A DNA stretch of 64,000 nt from Pseudoflavonifractor sp. An184. Its GTDB lineage: Bacteria > Bacillota > Clostridia > Oscillospirales > Oscillospiraceae. Location: assembly GCF_002160305.1 (NCBI RefSeq), contig NZ_NFKI01000002.1, positions 1-64,000 of the forward strand, in the 5' to 3' direction. Positions 2,357-49,025 of the stretch are shown here, piece by piece. The notes beneath the pieces are model-generated. The model was not told the origin of the DNA, made no database searches, and was given only the letters and a program-made list of their open reading frames with translations. The position numbers and the translations under genes were made by a program. The stretch's first letter is position 1. Each line of letters starts with the position of its first letter.

Positions 2357-2535
2357 CAGCTTGTCAAAAAACCTCTGCTGAGTAGAATGCGCCTCAGTTT
2401 TGGCGGGGGAGCTCGAGGGGGCGGCAGCCCGCCTCGAATGGGATCGAATACCCTGAATGCCTTGCTTGGCAAGGCGTTCAGCGAGCGCAGCGAGGACTTT
2501 CCCGCCGCTGTGCGGCGGGAAAGTAACGGCATTTT
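2357..2535 (+). repeat. Terminator-associated element, copy A (truncated)
   Basis: The sequence matches about 180 bp of the 220-bp element seen complete at 11938, 14164 and 32657. The CAGCTTGTC end lies directly after the terminator at 2324-2356. The internal hairpins (ctcgaggggg...cccgcctcga, gccttgc/gcaaggc, cccgccgc/gcggcggg) are present. The opposite, CAGGCTGTCG-type terminal hairpin is missing, and the element stops at the stop codon of the yccA-like gene (2536-2538). No second copy of the terminator hairpin remains on that side. Confidence 0.85.
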
Positions 2536-3264
2536 TCAGTTGCGGCTCTTGCCCAGGAAGCGAAGCAGGTACAAAAACAGGTTGATAAAGTCCAGATACA
2601 GCTGCAACGCGGAGAAGATGGACGCCTTTTCCATCATATCCGGATAGCCGGCGTAGTAGTGGTAGTACTCCCGGATGCGCTGGGTGTCGTAGGCGGTGTA
2701 GCCCAGAAACACCGCGATGCCGATGAGGCACACAATGGTGTCAAAGGCGGTGAGAGCCGGGATGAACAGGCTCACCAGTCCAAACACCACCAGGAAGATC
2801 AGGCCGGAGAACAGGATGGGACCGATACCCGCCAGGTTCCGCTTGGTGAAATGTCCATAGGCCGCCAGCACGCCGAAGTACAGGGCAGTGGCCAGGAACA
2901 CAAGGATGATGCTGTCCAGCCGGTACACATACAGGTAGATGGACAGGGTAAACCCGAACAGGGCGGAGAAGGCCACAAAAATGGACCGGGCCGTCCCCAC
3001 CGACATCTTCTCAATGCGGGCGGACATGGTATAGGCCATGACCAGGGTGGCAATCAGCACCGCCAGCTGGACAAAGGGCGCGTACACATACACATACAGC
3101 GTCAGGTTGGTAATCCATCCCACCACCGCCACGCCAAAGGTAATCATCAGACCCAGCACCATCCACAGGAAGGTCCGGGAGGTATACTCCCCTTCGGTGA
3201 CCACCCGCCGGTTTGCAGGGTTGGGGGTGTAGTCCCGGTCAAATTCATAGGGATCAAAACTCAT
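2536..3264 (-). CDS. Bax inhibitor-1/YccA family membrane protein
   Basis: A 242-residue integral membrane protein with about seven hydrophobic segments. The family signature is YTAYDTQRIREYYHYYAG near residue 200, containing the conserved acidic pair region of the BI-1/YetJ fold. The ATG at 3264 follows a GAAAGGAGT ribosome-binding site, so the longer upstream reading is not used. Relatives are pH-sensitive Ca2+ leak channels or FtsH-interacting proteins; which applies here is unknown. The stop codon touches repeat element copy A. Confidence 0.9.
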   Translation of the reverse strand: MSFDPYEFDRDYTPNPANRRVVTEGEYTSRTFLWMVLGLMITFGVAVVGWITNLTLYVYVYAPFVQLAVLIATLVMAYTMSARIEKMSVGTARSIFVAFSALFGFTLSIYLYVYRLDSIILVFLATALYFGVLAAYGHFTKRNLAGIGPILFSGLIFLVVFGLVSLFIPALTAFDTIVCLIGIAVFLGYTAYDTQRIREYYHYYAGYPDMMEKASIFSALQLYLDFINLFLYLLRFLGKSRN

Positions 3265-11910: not shown

Positions 11911-11937
11911 AAACAGCCGCCCAGTTGGGCGGCTGTT
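11911..11937 (+). terminator. Terminator hairpin, left copy at element B
   Basis: The stem acagccgccc / gggcggctgt with loop agtt follows the small protein stop. A nearly identical hairpin recurs at 12159-12188 on the other side of the element. Confidence 0.85.
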
Positions 11938-12158
11938 CAGCTTGTCAAAAAACTCTGTTGAGATGAATCCCACTCAAATTAGGGTGGGGGAGCTCGAGGG
12001 GGCGGCAGCCCGCCTCGAGTGGGATCGAATGCCCTGAATGCCTTGCAGAGCAAGGCGTTCAGCGAGCGCAGCGAGGACTTTTCCGCCGCGCAGCGGTGGG
12101 AAAGTATCGGCATTCTTTCAGGCTGTCGAAAAAGTCCAAAGACTTTTCCGACAGCCTG
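11938..12158 (+). repeat. Terminator-associated element, copy B (full length)
   Basis: A 221-bp noncoding element running from CAGCTTGTCAAAAAAC to GACTTTTCCGACAGCCTG. The ends form imperfect terminal inverted repeats, and the right end folds as its own 17-bp hairpin. Internal palindromes are ctcgaggggg...cgcctcgag, ccttgc..gcaagg and ccgccgc. It lies between two copies of the same terminator hairpin and between convergent genes. No ORF is present, so it would be non-autonomous. Confidence 0.9.
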
Positions 12159-12188
12159 AAAGCCGCCCAGTTGGGCGGCTGTTTTTTT
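12159..12188 (-). terminator. Terminator hairpin, right copy at element B
   Basis: Same stem and loop as 11911-11937, sharing 23 identical bases. The T-run runs into the LTA-synthase stop codon (12187-12189). Confidence 0.85.
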
Positions 12189-14130: not shown

Positions 14131-14163
14131 AACGTGCCGGAAGGTTGCACCTTCCGGCACGTT
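14131..14163 (-). terminator. Terminator hairpin, left copy at element C
   Basis: A 33-bp palindromic hairpin (aacgtgccggaagg / ccttccggcacgtt). It is identical over all 33 bases to 14384-14416. Confidence 0.9.
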
Positions 14164-14383
14164 CAGGCTGTCGAAAAAGTCTAAGGACTTTTCCGACAGC
14201 CTGTAAAAATGCCGTTACTTTCCCGCCGCTGCGCGGCGGAAAAGTCCTCGCTGCGCTCGCTGAACGCCTTGCCATGCAAGGCATTCAGGGCATTCGATCC
14301 CACTCGAGGCGGGCTGCCGCCCCCTCGAGCTCCCCCGCCGACACTCGGGCGGATTCATCTGAACAGAGGTTTTCGACAAGCTG
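14164..14383 (-). repeat. Terminator-associated element, copy C (full length)
   Basis: A 220-bp element in the opposite orientation to copy B: it starts CAGGCTGTCGAAAAAGTC and ends GGTTTTCGACAAGCTG. Internal hairpins lie at 14164-14203, about 14223-14239, 14262-14285 and 14303-14330. It is flanked by perfect 33-bp copies of the alr terminator hairpin, exactly as a long target-site duplication would look. It lies between two genes on the same strand. Confidence 0.92.
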
Positions 14384-14416
14384 AACGTGCCGGAAGGTTG
14401 CACCTTCCGGCACGTT
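14384..14416 (-). terminator. alr terminator, right copy at element C
   Basis: Same 33-bp hairpin as 14131-14163, two bases downstream of the alanine racemase stop. Confidence 0.88.
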
Positions 14417-14418
14417 TT

Positions 14419-15540
14419 TTACCGTTCCTCGTATACCCGGGCCACCCGCCCGCTGAGTAGGGAGGTGAGCCCGCACCCCTCGTCGTCCCCGATGAGGAGG
14501 GACACCTCCTGGGCGGAGAGAAAATTTCCCGCCCGGTCGTACCCGTACAGGGTCACCTCGTCGTCCACCCGGCAGTCCAGGCCGGTGACGTCCACAATGG
14601 TCTGGTCCATGCAGCAGGCCAGCATGGGGACCCGCCGCCCCCGGATAAGCACCGGGCCATTGGCCCCGACCAGCTCCGGGCTCAGACCGTCCCCGTAGCC
14701 CACGGCGATGGTGGCCACCGTCCCGTCCCGCTCCATCCGGACGTGTCCCCCGTATCCCAGGGCATCCCCCGCCTTCAGCTCCCGCAGGTTGGTCACCCAG
14801 GTGCGCCAGGAGGCCACCTCCCCGATGGTCCCCAGGGGCTTTGTGGGGTGGTCCATGTACAGCCGCCGGCCGATGCGCACCCCGTCCAGCCGGTACTCCG
14901 GGAAATACTCGCTGGCGGCGCTGGCGGAGATGTGCCGGAAGGGGATCTCCATCCCCCCCGCCTCCAACTGGTCCACGCCGGACAGGTAGGTCCTCACCTG
15001 CTCCCCGGTCCGCTCCCGGTCCCCCAGGTCGGCAAAGTGGCTGTATGCCCCGGTGACGGTCACCCAGGGGCGGGCGGCCCGCCACTCCTCCAGCAGGGCG
15101 GAGAGCTCCGCCCCCGGCGTCAGCCCCACCCGGTGCAGGCCGGTCTCCACCTTCACCTGGACCTTCACCGGCCGTCCCCGCTCCCGGCCCAGCCGGACCA
15201 GCTGGGGCAGCACCCCCAGCCGCCACACGGGCAGGGTCAGGTCCAGCTCCGCCGCCGGGGCCAGCAGCCGCTCCGGCACGCCCCCCAGCACCAGGATGTC
15301 CTTCTCCACTCCCGCTTCCCGCAGGGCCGCTCCCTCGGACACCTGGGCCACCGCCAGGGTGTGGATCTCGTCAAAGGCGGCCAGCTCCCGGCCGATCCGC
15401 TCCAGCCCCAGGCCGTAGGCGTTGCCCTTGAGCACCGGGATGAGCGCCTTCCCCTCCAGCTCACCCAGCAGGGTCCGCACGTTCCGGCGCAGCTGTTCCA
15501 AATTGACATGCAAAACTGAATTATGCAAAATTTTATTCAT
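14419..15540 (-). CDS. alr: Alanine racemase
   Basis: A 373-residue PLP enzyme interconverting L- and D-alanine for peptidoglycan. The PLP-lysine motif VLKGNAYGLG lies at about residues 36-45; GAYSHFADLGD and the C-terminal beta-domain with VGYGDGLSPEL and the cysteine/Met loop CCMDQTIVDVTG follow. Length is normal. It may equally be a serine/alanine racemase. The ribosome-binding site is weak. Its terminator hairpin has been duplicated by element C. Confidence 0.93.
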   Translation of the reverse strand: MNKILHNSVLHVNLEQLRRNVRTLLGELEGKALIPVLKGNAYGLGLERIGRELAAFDEIHTLAVAQVSEGAALREAGVEKDILVLGGVPERLLAPAAELDLTLPVWRLGVLPQLVRLGRERGRPVKVQVKVETGLHRVGLTPGAELSALLEEWRAARPWVTVTGAYSHFADLGDRERTGEQVRTYLSGVDQLEAGGMEIPFRHISASAASEYFPEYRLDGVRIGRRLYMDHPTKPLGTIGEVASWRTWVTNLRELKAGDALGYGGHVRMERDGTVATIAVGYGDGLSPELVGANGPVLIRGRRVPMLACCMDQTIVDVTGLDCRVDDEVTLYGYDRAGNFLSAQEVSLLIGDDEGCGLTSLLSGRVARVYEER

Positions 15541-27644: not shown

Positions 27645-27720
27645 GCGAGTGTAGCTCATCTGGTAGAGCGCCACCTTGCCAAGGTGGAGGTAGCGAGTTC
27701 GAGCCTCGTCACTCGCTCCA
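27645..27720 (+). tRNA. tRNA-Gly (anticodon GCC)
   Basis: A 76-nt cloverleaf. Acceptor GCGAGTG pairs with CACTCGC; the anticodon arm CCACCTTGCCAAGGTGG exposes GCC; the T-arm is GCGAGTTCGAGCCTCGT; discriminator T and an encoded CCA end it at 27720. Confidence 0.97.
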
Positions 27721-29378: not shown

Positions 29379-29515
29379 GGCAGCGGGATGCGGACCACCC
29401 ACTGCCGCGTTTTGGAAACGCTGTTCGTCCGGCGGACAACTCCCCGTCCCGCCGGCACTGAAGGTCCCCCTGGCCCATTCCAGGCCGGGACCAGCACGTG
29501 TGGCCCTACTCTGCC
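29379..29515 (-). promoter_or_regulatory. Tetrahydrofolate (THF-I) riboswitch aptamer
   Basis: The minus strand fits the THF-I class. P1 is GGCAG/CUGCC; the conserved AGUA follows the 5' P1 strand; P2 is GGGCCAC/GUGGUCC; the conserved GCAUCC lies between P2 and P1 on the 3' side; and a P3 hairpin (ggtccc/gggacc) has a GAAUGGG loop segment, as expected for the pseudoknot. Two extra hairpins between P3 and the 3' P2 strand make this copy larger than the reference aptamer. It controls the folT gene. Confidence 0.8.
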
Positions 29516-30069: not shown

Positions 30070-30239
30070 GATAGGAGTTAGGAGATAGAAGATAGGAGAT
30101 AAATTCCTAACTCCTAATTCCTAACTTAAAACTCCTATCTCCAAACTCCTATCTCCAAACTCCTATCTCCTATCTCCAAACTCCTATCTCCTATCTCCTA
30201 TCTCCAAACTCCTATCTCCTATCTCATATCTCCTATCTG
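30070..30239. repeat. Degenerate heptamer tandem repeat tract
   Basis: About 170 bp built from CTCCTAT/CTCCAAA-type heptamers. The first 35 bp carry the opposite strand sense (GATAGGAG, AGTTAGGAG); the rest is about a dozen ACTCCTATCTCC-like units. The two halves are complementary, so the RNA could fold into a long hairpin between mrnC and rqcH. Confidence 0.9.
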
Positions 30240-30256
30240 AAACCGAGGTGTTTCCC

Positions 30257-32035
30257 ATGCCCTTAGACGCCCTCTGCCTGTCCGGCCTGGTCCACGAGCT
30301 GGACCAGACGGTCACCGGCGGAAAAATTGATAAGATCTATCAGCCCGGCCGGGACGAGATCCTGCTGGCGGTGCGCACCCCCGCCCACGGGAACGTGCGC
30401 CTGCTGCTGTCCGCCAACCCCAACCACCCCCGGCCCCAGCTCACCCAGATCTCCCGGGAGAACCCGGACACGCCCCCCATGTTCTGCATGCTCCTGCGCA
30501 AGCACCTGTCCGGCGCCCGGCTGCTGGCGGTGGAACAGCCACCGCTGGAGCGGGTGGTGATCTTCACCCTGGAGGCCCTCAACGAGCTGGGGGACCGGGT
30601 GGAGCGCAGGCTGGTGCTGGAGGCCATCGGCCGCCGGTCCAACCTGATCCTGCTGGACGAGTCCGGCCGCATCCTGGACTGCATGCGGCGGGTGGAGTCC
30701 AGCCTGGGGACCGGAAACGCCAATCAGCGCTCCCTGCTGCCCGGCATGTTCTACCGCCTCCCCCCCGCCCAGGAGAAGCTGGACCCCACCGCCCAGAGCC
30801 GGGAGGAGCTGGAGCGCCTGCTCTCCGCCGCCCCGGAGGAGGCCCAGGCGGACAAGTGGCTGCTGGACACCTTCAGCGGCCTGTCCCCCCTGGTGTGCCG
30901 GGAGCTGGCCTTCCAGGCGGGGGGCGCCACCGACCTGCGCCTGAACGTGCTGGGACCGGCCGGCCGGACACGGCTGCTGGACAGCCTGGAGGGGCTGCTC
31001 GCCCTAGTCCGGGAACACCGCCTCTCCCCCACCCTGCTCAGCCGGGACGGGGCCCCCTGGGACTTTACCTTCTTCCCGGTGGCCCAGTACGGAGCCCTGG
31101 TGGAGTGCACCCCCTTCCCCTCTTTTTCGGAGCTGCTGGACCGGTTCTATGAGCAGCGGGAGCACCTGGAGCGGGTGAAGCAGCGGGGGCAGGATCTGAT
31201 CCGCTCGGTGACCACCGCAAGGGACCGCACCGCCCGCAAGATCGCCCACCAGGAGCAGGAGCTCGCCGCCACCCAGGACCGGGAGCGGCTGCGGGAGCTG
31301 GGGGACATCCTCACCTCCAACCTCTACCAGATGGAGCGGGGAATGGCCCGGCTGCGCACCGTGGACTTCTACGACCCGGAGGGAAAAGAGGTGGACATCC
31401 AGCTGGACCCCCTCCTCACCCCCCAGCAGAACGCCGCCAAGTATTATAAGGAGTACAACAAGGCAAAGACCGCCGAGGTGATGCTCACCCAGCAGCTGGA
31501 GAAAAACCGCCGGGAACTGGAGTACCTCAACAGCGTCCTGGACACCATCCCCCTGGCCGAGGGGGAGAAGGACCTCAGTGAGATCCGTCAGGAGCTCACC
31601 GACACCGGCTATCTCCGCCGCCCCTCCAAGGTCAAGGGCCGGGAAAAGCGGGTGGTCTCCAAGCCCATGGAGTTCCGCTCCTCCTCCGGCCTGCGCATCT
31701 CGGTGGGCAAGAACAACACCCAGAACGACCTGCTCACCTGCAAGCAGGCCTTCAAGAGCGACATCTGGTTCCACACCCAGAAGATCCACGGCTCCCACGT
31801 GATCCTGTGGACCGAGGGGCGGGAGCCCGACCTGCAGAGCGTCCAGGAGGCCGCCTGTCTGGCCGCCTGGTTCTCCCAGGCCCGGGACAGCAGCAAGGTG
31901 CCGGTGGACTACACCCCGGTGAAGTATGTGAAAAAGCCCGGCGGGGCCCGGCCGGGTATGGTGATCTACACCACCTACGAGACCGCCTGGGTCACTCCGG
32001 ACGGGGAGCTGGCCAGGCGGCTCCGGGTCCGCTGA
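30257..32035 (+). CDS. rqcH: NFACT protein RqcH (FbpA-like ribosome quality control factor)
   Basis: A 592-residue NFACT protein. The N-terminal NFACT-N region begins MPLDALCLSGLVHEL and includes GGKIDKIYQPGRDEIL and PPMFCMLLRKHLSGARL; helix-hairpin and coiled-coil segments span about 290-430; the C-terminal NFACT-R domain has FRSSSGLRISVGKNNTQND, SDIWFHTQKIHGSHVIL and the basic end. RqcH adds alanine tails to peptides on stalled 50S subunits. The ATG at 30257 is preferred, with GAGGTG before it; a GTG at 30248 would overlap that site. Confidence 0.93.
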   Translation: MPLDALCLSGLVHELDQTVTGGKIDKIYQPGRDEILLAVRTPAHGNVRLLLSANPNHPRPQLTQISRENPDTPPMFCMLLRKHLSGARLLAVEQPPLERVVIFTLEALNELGDRVERRLVLEAIGRRSNLILLDESGRILDCMRRVESSLGTGNANQRSLLPGMFYRLPPAQEKLDPTAQSREELERLLSAAPEEAQADKWLLDTFSGLSPLVCRELAFQAGGATDLRLNVLGPAGRTRLLDSLEGLLALVREHRLSPTLLSRDGAPWDFTFFPVAQYGALVECTPFPSFSELLDRFYEQREHLERVKQRGQDLIRSVTTARDRTARKIAHQEQELAATQDRERLRELGDILTSNLYQMERGMARLRTVDFYDPEGKEVDIQLDPLLTPQQNAAKYYKEYNKAKTAEVMLTQQLEKNRRELEYLNSVLDTIPLAEGEKDLSEIRQELTDTGYLRRPSKVKGREKRVVSKPMEFRSSSGLRISVGKNNTQNDLLTCKQAFKSDIWFHTQKIHGSHVILWTEGREPDLQSVQEAACLAAWFSQARDSSKVPVDYTPVKYVKKPGGARPGMVIYTTYETAWVTPDGELARRLRVR

Positions 32036-32616: not shown

Positions 32617-32656
32617 AAAAAAGCTGACCCATCTCACTGGATGGGTCAGCTTTTTT
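32617..32656. terminator. Terminator hairpin, left copy at element D
   Basis: A 40-bp palindrome (aaaaaagctgacccat / atgggtcagctttttt). It differs from the copy at 32878-32917 at only two loop bases. Confidence 0.9.
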
Positions 32657-32877
32657 CAGGCTGTCGAAAAAGTCCAAAGACTTTTCCGACAGCCTGAAAA
32701 AATGCCAATACTTTCCCGCCGCTGCGCGGCGGAAAAGTCCTCGCTGCGCTCGCTGAATGCCTTGCCTTGCAAGGCATTCAGGGCATTCGTTCCCACTCGA
32801 GGCGGGCTGCCGCCCCCTCGAGCTCCCCCGCCCTAACTTGAGCGGATTCACCTATACAGAGGTTTTTTGACAAGCTG
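32657..32877 (-). repeat. Terminator-associated element, copy D (full length)
   Basis: A 221-bp element in the orientation of copy C, from CAGGCTGTCGAAAAAGTCC to GGTTTTTTGACAAGCTG. It carries the same internal hairpins and the shared gggctgccgccccctcgag core. It lies between two near-identical terminators and between convergent genes. Confidence 0.92.
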
Positions 32878-32917
32878 AAAAAAGCTGACCCATCCTACTG
32901 GATGGGTCAGCTTTTTT
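32878..32917. terminator. Terminator hairpin, right copy at element D
   Basis: Near-perfect duplicate of 32617-32656, 37 bp after the decarboxylase alpha-subunit stop on the minus strand. Confidence 0.88.
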
Positions 32918-48854: not shown

Positions 48855-48899
48855 ATTCGGTTCCTCCTTATTTTTCTATGTTATTCTTTGGAAGAAAAC

Positions 48900-48919
48900 G
48901 GCGGGGGCAAGCCCCCGCC
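48900..48919. terminator. GC hairpin beside element E
   Basis: A 9-bp stem (ggcgggggc / gcccccgcc) with loop AA and a short T-tract on the minus strand. It is the surviving terminator next to truncated element copy E. Confidence 0.75.
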
Positions 48920-48920
48920 C

Positions 48921-49025
48921 CAGGCTGTCGAAAAAGTCCAAGGGCTTTTCCAACAGCCTGCAAAATGCCGTTACTTTCGCGCCTCACAGCGGCGCAAAAG
49001 TCCTCGCTTCGCCTCCCCCTCAGCG
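48921..49025 (-). repeat. Terminator-associated element, copy E (truncated)
   Basis: About 105 bp matching the CAGGCTGTCG-type end of the element: the terminal hairpin (48921-48960), then aaaatgccgttacttt and the aaagtcctcgcttcg region. The rest is missing, and it stops at the degV stop codon (49026-49028). The geometry mirrors copy A. Confidence 0.85.

Follow-up and report, generated by a model that had tools for sequence, protein, structure and literature searches.

Duplication of complete hairpins at insertions of a MITE with IS1182-type ends in Pseudoflavonifractor

In the genome of Pseudoflavonifractor sp. An184, insertion of a 220-bp MITE is accompanied by duplication of a complete hairpin. 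The duplicated hairpin is specific to each copy of the element, the borders of the duplication are centered on the hairpin dyad, and four orthologous sites that lack the element each hold a single hairpin. Nearly the same ends are found on an IS1182-family element that behaves in the same way, and together with relatives of that element, the evidence for duplication, over lengths of 16–40 bp, comes to 85 insertions in three sets (33 + 16 + 36, not all of them independent, with the MITE set drawn from among the matches listed). How much DNA is duplicated seems to be determined by the shape of the target and not by the enzyme.

The reading that we consider highly probable, judging from the sequences compared, is that the MITE depends for its movement on an IS1182-family DDE transposase acting in trans, which would recognize its target, a hairpin or cruciform, by shape. 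The hairpin would be extruded as a cruciform, and on each strand a 3′ end of the element would be joined at the 5′ foot of the hairpin; these two points, distant along the DNA, would come to lie side by side where the extruded cruciform has its base. Gap repair would then copy the hairpin onto both sides, yielding a duplication that equals the hairpin, whatever its length.

The element, its hairpin, and its copies in the genome

The window analyzed here is the whole stretch of 64,000 nucleotides at the start of contig NZ_NFKI01000002.1; its own genome, G000, comprises 3.59 Mb in 162 contigs. The copy of the element designated C (Table 1) is bounded exactly by two 33-bp direct repeats of 100% identity, as the first-pass annotation had described. 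Folded as single-stranded DNA, this repeat forms a hairpin of 15 pairs with a 3-nt loop at −18.9 kcal/mol, which none of 200 shuffled sequences equaled. The imperfect inverted repeats claimed for the ends of copy C are likewise borne out by end comparison, with CAGGCTGTCGAAAA on the left and CAGCTTGTCGAAAA on the right, read inward. The open reading frames touching copy C consist of mechanical frames of 61 to 84 aa and one 313-aa out-of-frame ORF lying mostly over alr, and the short frames within the copy were set aside as genes. An RNA family was likewise set aside, given that Rfam at gathering thresholds produced no match at copy C.

Table 1. Copies of the MITE in the window and the features belonging to them.
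Feature	Position	Strand	Basis
MITE copy C, 220 bp, non-autonomous, IS1182-type ends	14164..14383	+	Repeat and end comparison
Target hairpin of copy C, 33 bp, left copy	14131..14163	.	Repeat analysis and folding
Target hairpin of copy C, 33 bp, right copy, identical to left	14384..14416	.	Repeat analysis
Left terminal palindrome of copy C, 40 bp (inverted-repeat end plus mirror)	14164..14203	+	End comparison, folding
Right inverted-repeat end of copy C, GTTTTCGACAAGCTG	14369..14383	+	
MITE copy B, full length (L049); orthologous site in G010 without element, one hairpin	11938..12158	−	
Hairpin of copy B, left side	12159..12183	.	
Hairpin of copy B, right side, 24/25 identical	11913..11937	.	
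MITE copy D, full length	32657..32877	+	
Hairpin of copy D, 40 bp, left	32617..32656	.	Repeat analysis and folding
Hairpin of copy D, 40 bp, right, 38/40 identical	32878..32917	.	
MITE copy A, without left terminal palindrome and left hairpin	2357..2536	−	
MITE copy E, right part missing	48921..49012	+	

An alanine racemase gene (14419–15540, minus strand; TIGR00492 185 bits, cut-off 168) is followed, 2 bases past its stop codon, by the hairpin of copy C. The designation of this hairpin in the first-pass annotation as the alr terminator is plausible from this position and derives from it, since a simple terminator scan makes no call for the hairpins at 14131 and 14384, whereas it does call those around 11938–12158. 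The neighboring gene is weakly lipoteichoic acid synthase–like (NF053595 47 bits versus a cut-off of 970), and the ltaS label in the alr–ltaS junction named in the same annotation is weak. Elsewhere in the window, Rfam at gathering thresholds gives only two matches, a THF riboswitch at 29379–29515 (minus strand, 54 bits) and a tRNA gene at 27645–27717 (plus strand), and a tandem heptamer repeat with units TCCTATC and TCCAAAC lies at 30091–30265.

The 220-bp element is a MITE with dozens of copies. An element search of G000 returned at least 51 matches (40 of 163 first-look candidates scored), and its left-end pattern, allowing up to 2 mismatches, has 103 forward and 101 reverse matches, whereas the reversed pattern has 6 and 8. 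Since the 40-bp left end is palindromic, one copy can yield two left-end matches. The copies examined were taken from about 100 listed of 204 and of 144 end matches, and the genome holds more; at least 42 distinct full-length copies are present, none of them with a transposase. Five copies lie in the window, three full-length and two truncated. By eye, truncated copy A keeps its right hairpin at about 2323–2356, and copy E keeps its left hairpin at about 48899–48920. Eleven copies in the genome start at element position 40–45, with the left hairpin absent by eye (e.g., L085, L096, and L098); in copies starting near this position, including the one at 2357–2536 of the window, the left palindrome and the left hairpin have been lost jointly, and only the right hairpin is kept.

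Tandem element–hairpin–element arrays are present at L041, L040, and L046 (contigs C127, C117, and C35 of G000). In these arrays, a hairpin from one insertion seems to have been targeted again, leaving the site not exhausted. G000 also contains a second short element of ~150 bp with a palindromic left end of ~30 bp (L095, L093, L074, and L076); by eye, copies of a single hairpin bound it on both sides in L095 and, in more diverged form, in L074. Contigs of the draft break within the MITE, e.g., C80/C108, C76/C83, C16/C10, and C102/C121. The hairpins at the broken ends match in pairs by eye and hence could be used as tags to link contigs.

Hairpin duplication at MITE copies and at orthologous empty sites

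Among the matches listed, a hairpin foot (score ≥6) lies within 3 nt of 72 of 76 right ends and 58 of 61 left ends, against a background of 3.1% of 3000 random window positions; hairpins at the element ends are thus not a matter of chance. Three of the 42 full-length copies were dropped for short flanks, leaving 39 with flanks of 45 nt or more on either side. The first-pass annotation had suggested testing whether each copy is flanked by duplicated hairpins, and a copy-specific hairpin direct repeat (score ≥10) is present at 33 of these 39, among the matches listed. Within the same 33 copies, among the matches listed, the repeats are 16–40 bp long with scores of 10–39, 19 of them have no mismatch, and the center of the repeat falls within 0.5 nt of the hairpin dyad in 32, exactly on it in 23. 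By comparison, among 1482 mismatched left–right flank pairings, the 99th percentile of the score is 4 and the highest score is 16. A fixed-length staggered cut is rejected by the spread of the duplications from 16 to 40 bp.

The six remaining copies of the 39, again among the matches listed, score below 10. Inspected by eye, L014, L017, and L044 carry a hairpin on either side, the two differing in minor changes, and L036 has lost one hairpin arm; for L186 and L188, a repeat was sought at both ends and none was found. L038, which is counted as positive with 16 bp, retains just one hairpin arm on its right side. At L083 (G000:C78:16294-16514), one of the two hairpin copies is inverted (loops GGTA and TACC): the right loop is the reverse complement of the left, and the left loop is also the one seen at the empty site for this copy in G010. 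This inversion leaves our main reading intact without being accounted for by it, as do the missing left ends of the eleven copies and the absence of the partner IS from the draft.

The target had been described as a terminator hairpin, a description that holds usually rather than always: a T4 or A4 run stands beside the hairpin foot in 21 of the 33 MITE targets, among the matches listed, and hence most but not all targets resemble intrinsic terminators.

The symmetry of these borders could also be explained with the same IS1182 element but without extrusion, if a transposase multimer were to read the long palindromic duplex and cut it symmetrically, since dyad-symmetric borders are what a symmetric protein complex would leave. 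However, the cuts lie anywhere from 16 to 40 bp apart, their spacing tracking the foot of the stem, whereas a single spacing would be expected of a rigid complex acting on linear DNA, and the duplicated sequences vary among copies. We therefore regard such reading of linear duplex as unlikely and favor a hairpin extruded as a cruciform.

Direct proof of insertion with hairpin duplication comes from four empty orthologous sites of other copies. From the near relative G010, some 757 kb was compared with 56 MITE copies, of which 15 have both flanks on one piece and 10 have a single flank; the remaining copies have no match in the ~757 kb compared. At the sites of L049, L083, L084, and the more diverged L060, the element is absent from G010 and the flanks are joined with a single hairpin, their overlap being equal to the duplicated hairpin (25, 30, 34, and 30 bp, respectively). 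The initial interpretation of copy C, an insertion that duplicated a complete stem-loop, is thereby supported. For L014, L053, L022, L038, and L051, 184–238 bases separate the flanks in G010, on contigs that carry a listed element, and these insertions hence probably predate the split of the two genomes. The site of L050 lacks the element and contains other DNA, that of the left-truncated copy L098 has the hairpin without the element, and those of L092, L031, L202, and L210 are not simply readable.

The first-pass annotation had pointed to the same junction in relatives as the place to look for insertion at copy C itself. Of 24 same-genus genomes searched, 22 have some match, and 4 have both genes adjacent at the DNA level. 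By eye, G012 and G015 show one hairpin at the homologous place, G010 shows one hairpin of other sequence beside ~0.9 kb of extra DNA, and G011 shows no clear hairpin. Two hairpins are found in none of these four relatives. The exact pre-insertion 33-bp hairpin of copy C is absent from all relatives searched, and the junction data for this reason support insertion at copy C and do not alone prove it.

These sites also bear on whether a second hairpin could have been there before the element, which would then have inserted between pre-existing tandem hairpins, or have been gained later by recombination or conversion. Multi-hairpin sites do occur, as the three element–hairpin–element arrays show, but a single hairpin stands at the four orthologous empty sites and in three of the four relatives with the alr–ltaS junction, and because the hairpins vary among copies, they must be local. 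Pre-existing double hairpins are rejected on the empty sites of G010, and we consider this explanation highly improbable. Least probable of all, and rejected on the same sites, is a mobile unit of hairpin plus core brought from a donor site, which would account for the fact that nearly all ends adjoin a hairpin, but the hairpin varies by copy and equals that of the empty site.

Hairpin duplication at IS1182-family elements

An IS1182 transposase with MITE-type ends is not assembled in the draft of G000, where PF13751 has 2 matches and PF05598 has 1. These matches represent one IS with other ends and a fragment, and the IS1182-type IS in question (G000:C130) was set aside as a mobilizer because its ends differ. 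In G010, an IS1182-type transposase gene runs off the end of a contig, and its similar left end adjoins a hairpin; G017 (7 contigs, with MITE matches) has neither PF13751 nor PF05598 matches. A comparison of the MITE interior with the IS loci gave no strong match and little beyond the short end matches.

A candidate mobilizer is found in G007, a genome of the same genus on a single contig, with 37 PF13751 matches. We fetched and aligned 27 loci of one type and dropped three truncated ones; L127, which has a damaged left end, was kept and counted as a miss. Copy alignment delimits an IS of 1590 bp with the ends CAGCCTGTCGAAAAAGTC and, read inward, CAGCTTGTCGAAAAA. Between its inverted repeats lies a single 524-aa frame (slightly overrunning the right end in L118), whose product is assigned to the IS1182 family by NF033551 (392.6 bits, cut-off 270) and also scores above the cut-offs for Pfam DDE_Tnp_1_6 and DUF772. 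On the left, this IS and the MITE agree at 17 of 18 end bases; on the right, the IS agrees at 15 of 15 bases with the MITE consensus taken among the matches listed, a consensus from which the right end of copy C differs in one base. A hairpin repeat is present in 16 of the 24 G007 copies, with its center within 0.5 of the dyad in all 16 and exactly on it in 14, whereas none of 552 mismatched pairs reaches a score of 12. The right hairpins of L136 and L129 in this genome are almost reverse complements of one another.

In the GTDB collection, relatives are encoded at 262 places. Eighty of these were kept, most of them Clostridia by title; short flanks excluded 21, and 10 of the 59 left were dropped because an end was missing. 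Without any choice of ends, the direct repeat scores ≥19 at 37 of the 59, and at none of the other 22 does it exceed 12. Where both ends could be located, a repeat is found in 36 of 49, centered exactly in 35 of these 36; for these 49, the ends were picked so as to maximize the repeat score, seven loci come from one genome, and L255 and L256 represent one site. Three of 2352 mismatched pairs score ≥12, two of which probably stem from these twin loci. Eight of the 24 G007 copies and 13 of the 49 relatives lack a matching pair. About six of the former and 12 of the latter show, by eye, a different hairpin on each side, as would be expected if copies had recombined with each other, which is our tentative reading.

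Complementarity between the two sides of the target, scored in restored order, drops at the cut in all three sets. In the MITE set, it is 0.72–0.85 at bases 2–10 inside the cut, 0.42–0.61 at the three positions at the cut, and 0.18–0.39 at bases 3–8 outside; the corresponding values are 0.75–1.00, 0.56–0.69, and 0.31–0.44 for the G007 IS and 0.79–0.97, 0.60–0.74, and 0.20–0.57 for the named relatives. Since the IS sets pair more near the cut and outside it, the stem often runs 1–2 pairs past the cut.

Hairpin-duplicating IS1182 elements include many relatives, mostly in Clostridia and some in Bacilli. On plasmids, eight IS1182 places were fetched, and hairpin duplication is seen in three of the eight, within the best 40 of 1181 records with a match: two in Enterococcus and one in Cytobacillus. 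The Staphylococcus simulans place has differing hairpins near its two sides, and hairpin duplication was sought and not found at the ISEfa7, ISCfr1, and Thermaerobacter plasmid places. The part of PMC3196728 consulted tabulates ISCaa15 of Amoebophilus as IS1182, with direct repeats of 4 bp. Together with the negative plasmid places, this indicates that hairpin duplication belongs to part of the IS1182 family. On plasmid pTVN of Thermocaproicibacter melissae, an IS1182 relative (L337) lies beside cas10, with its left end adjoining a hairpin and its right side cut by the record start.

Comparison with known transposition systems

Bacterial MITEs are short, gene-less elements with terminal inverted repeats that occur in many copies and are mobilized in trans, and the duplications that they leave are usually short and of fixed length. 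The element described here resembles them in being short and gene-less, in its terminal inverted repeats, in its many copies, and, as its ends suggest, in being moved in trans; it differs in that its duplication is a whole hairpin of variable length. More generally, DDE transposons as a rule leave short target-site duplications, with a length fixed by the enzyme. Direct repeats of 0–60 bp are reportedly given for the IS1182 family in ISfinder, and these may include such hairpins. We consider it fairly probable that a widespread IS1182-type branch integrates across the base of a cruciform, with the length of the duplication set by the structure of the target. Integration of this kind would leave two intact targets, spare the terminator, and keep sites re-usable, giving rise to arrays and to a hairpin-bound pool of MITEs.

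Palindromes have been named before as targets of some IS1182 members by Siguier et al. 2015, as cited in the sections consulted of PMC4923244 and PMC5678879, the latter (Wan et al.) stating that no detailed data were given there. IS1182 is also among the families over-represented between convergent genes according to the part of PMC9208149 consulted, which fits the present targets. The literature covered by our search, in the portions consulted, describes no actual duplication of a whole hairpin, which may be recorded in the main IS review or in ISfinder.

The nearest known system is IS1272 / TnSha1 of the IS1182 family, which, in the sections consulted of Furi et al. 2016 (PMC4923244), inserts at hairpins and deletes them without duplication. 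As with the present elements, an IS1182-family transposase acts on hairpin targets, some of them terminators, with no sequence consensus. Unlike the present elements, which keep and duplicate the hairpin, IS1272 removes part or all of it, and in the model of Wan et al. 2017 (PMC5678879, as far as consulted), joining takes place at the 3′ feet and the stem-loop is lost. Such replacement, with the hairpin deleted and not duplicated, is not what we find, as two hairpins stand at 33 of 39 copies, among the matches listed, and one stands at the four empty sites. The present elements hence differ from IS1272 in outcome and not in the kind of target, and because the hairpin is kept and duplicated, the target survives and is open to further insertion.

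The same model of Wan et al. 2017 contains, in the part consulted, a hypothetical alternative branch drawn without examples (pathway b, Fig. 13), in which joining at the 5′ foot may duplicate the whole stem-loop. Duplication of the whole stem-loop, the outcome that pathway b predicts, is also what the present elements show, and our data fit this pathway. What had been drawn merely as a possibility thereby becomes directly testable, and the comparison suggests that, on targets of the same kind, a single transposase family can bring about either deletion or duplication. Duplication could explain how dozens of copies come to lie behind genes without loss of terminators, and the duplications themselves offer a sequence record of sites at which cruciforms or hairpins form in living cells.
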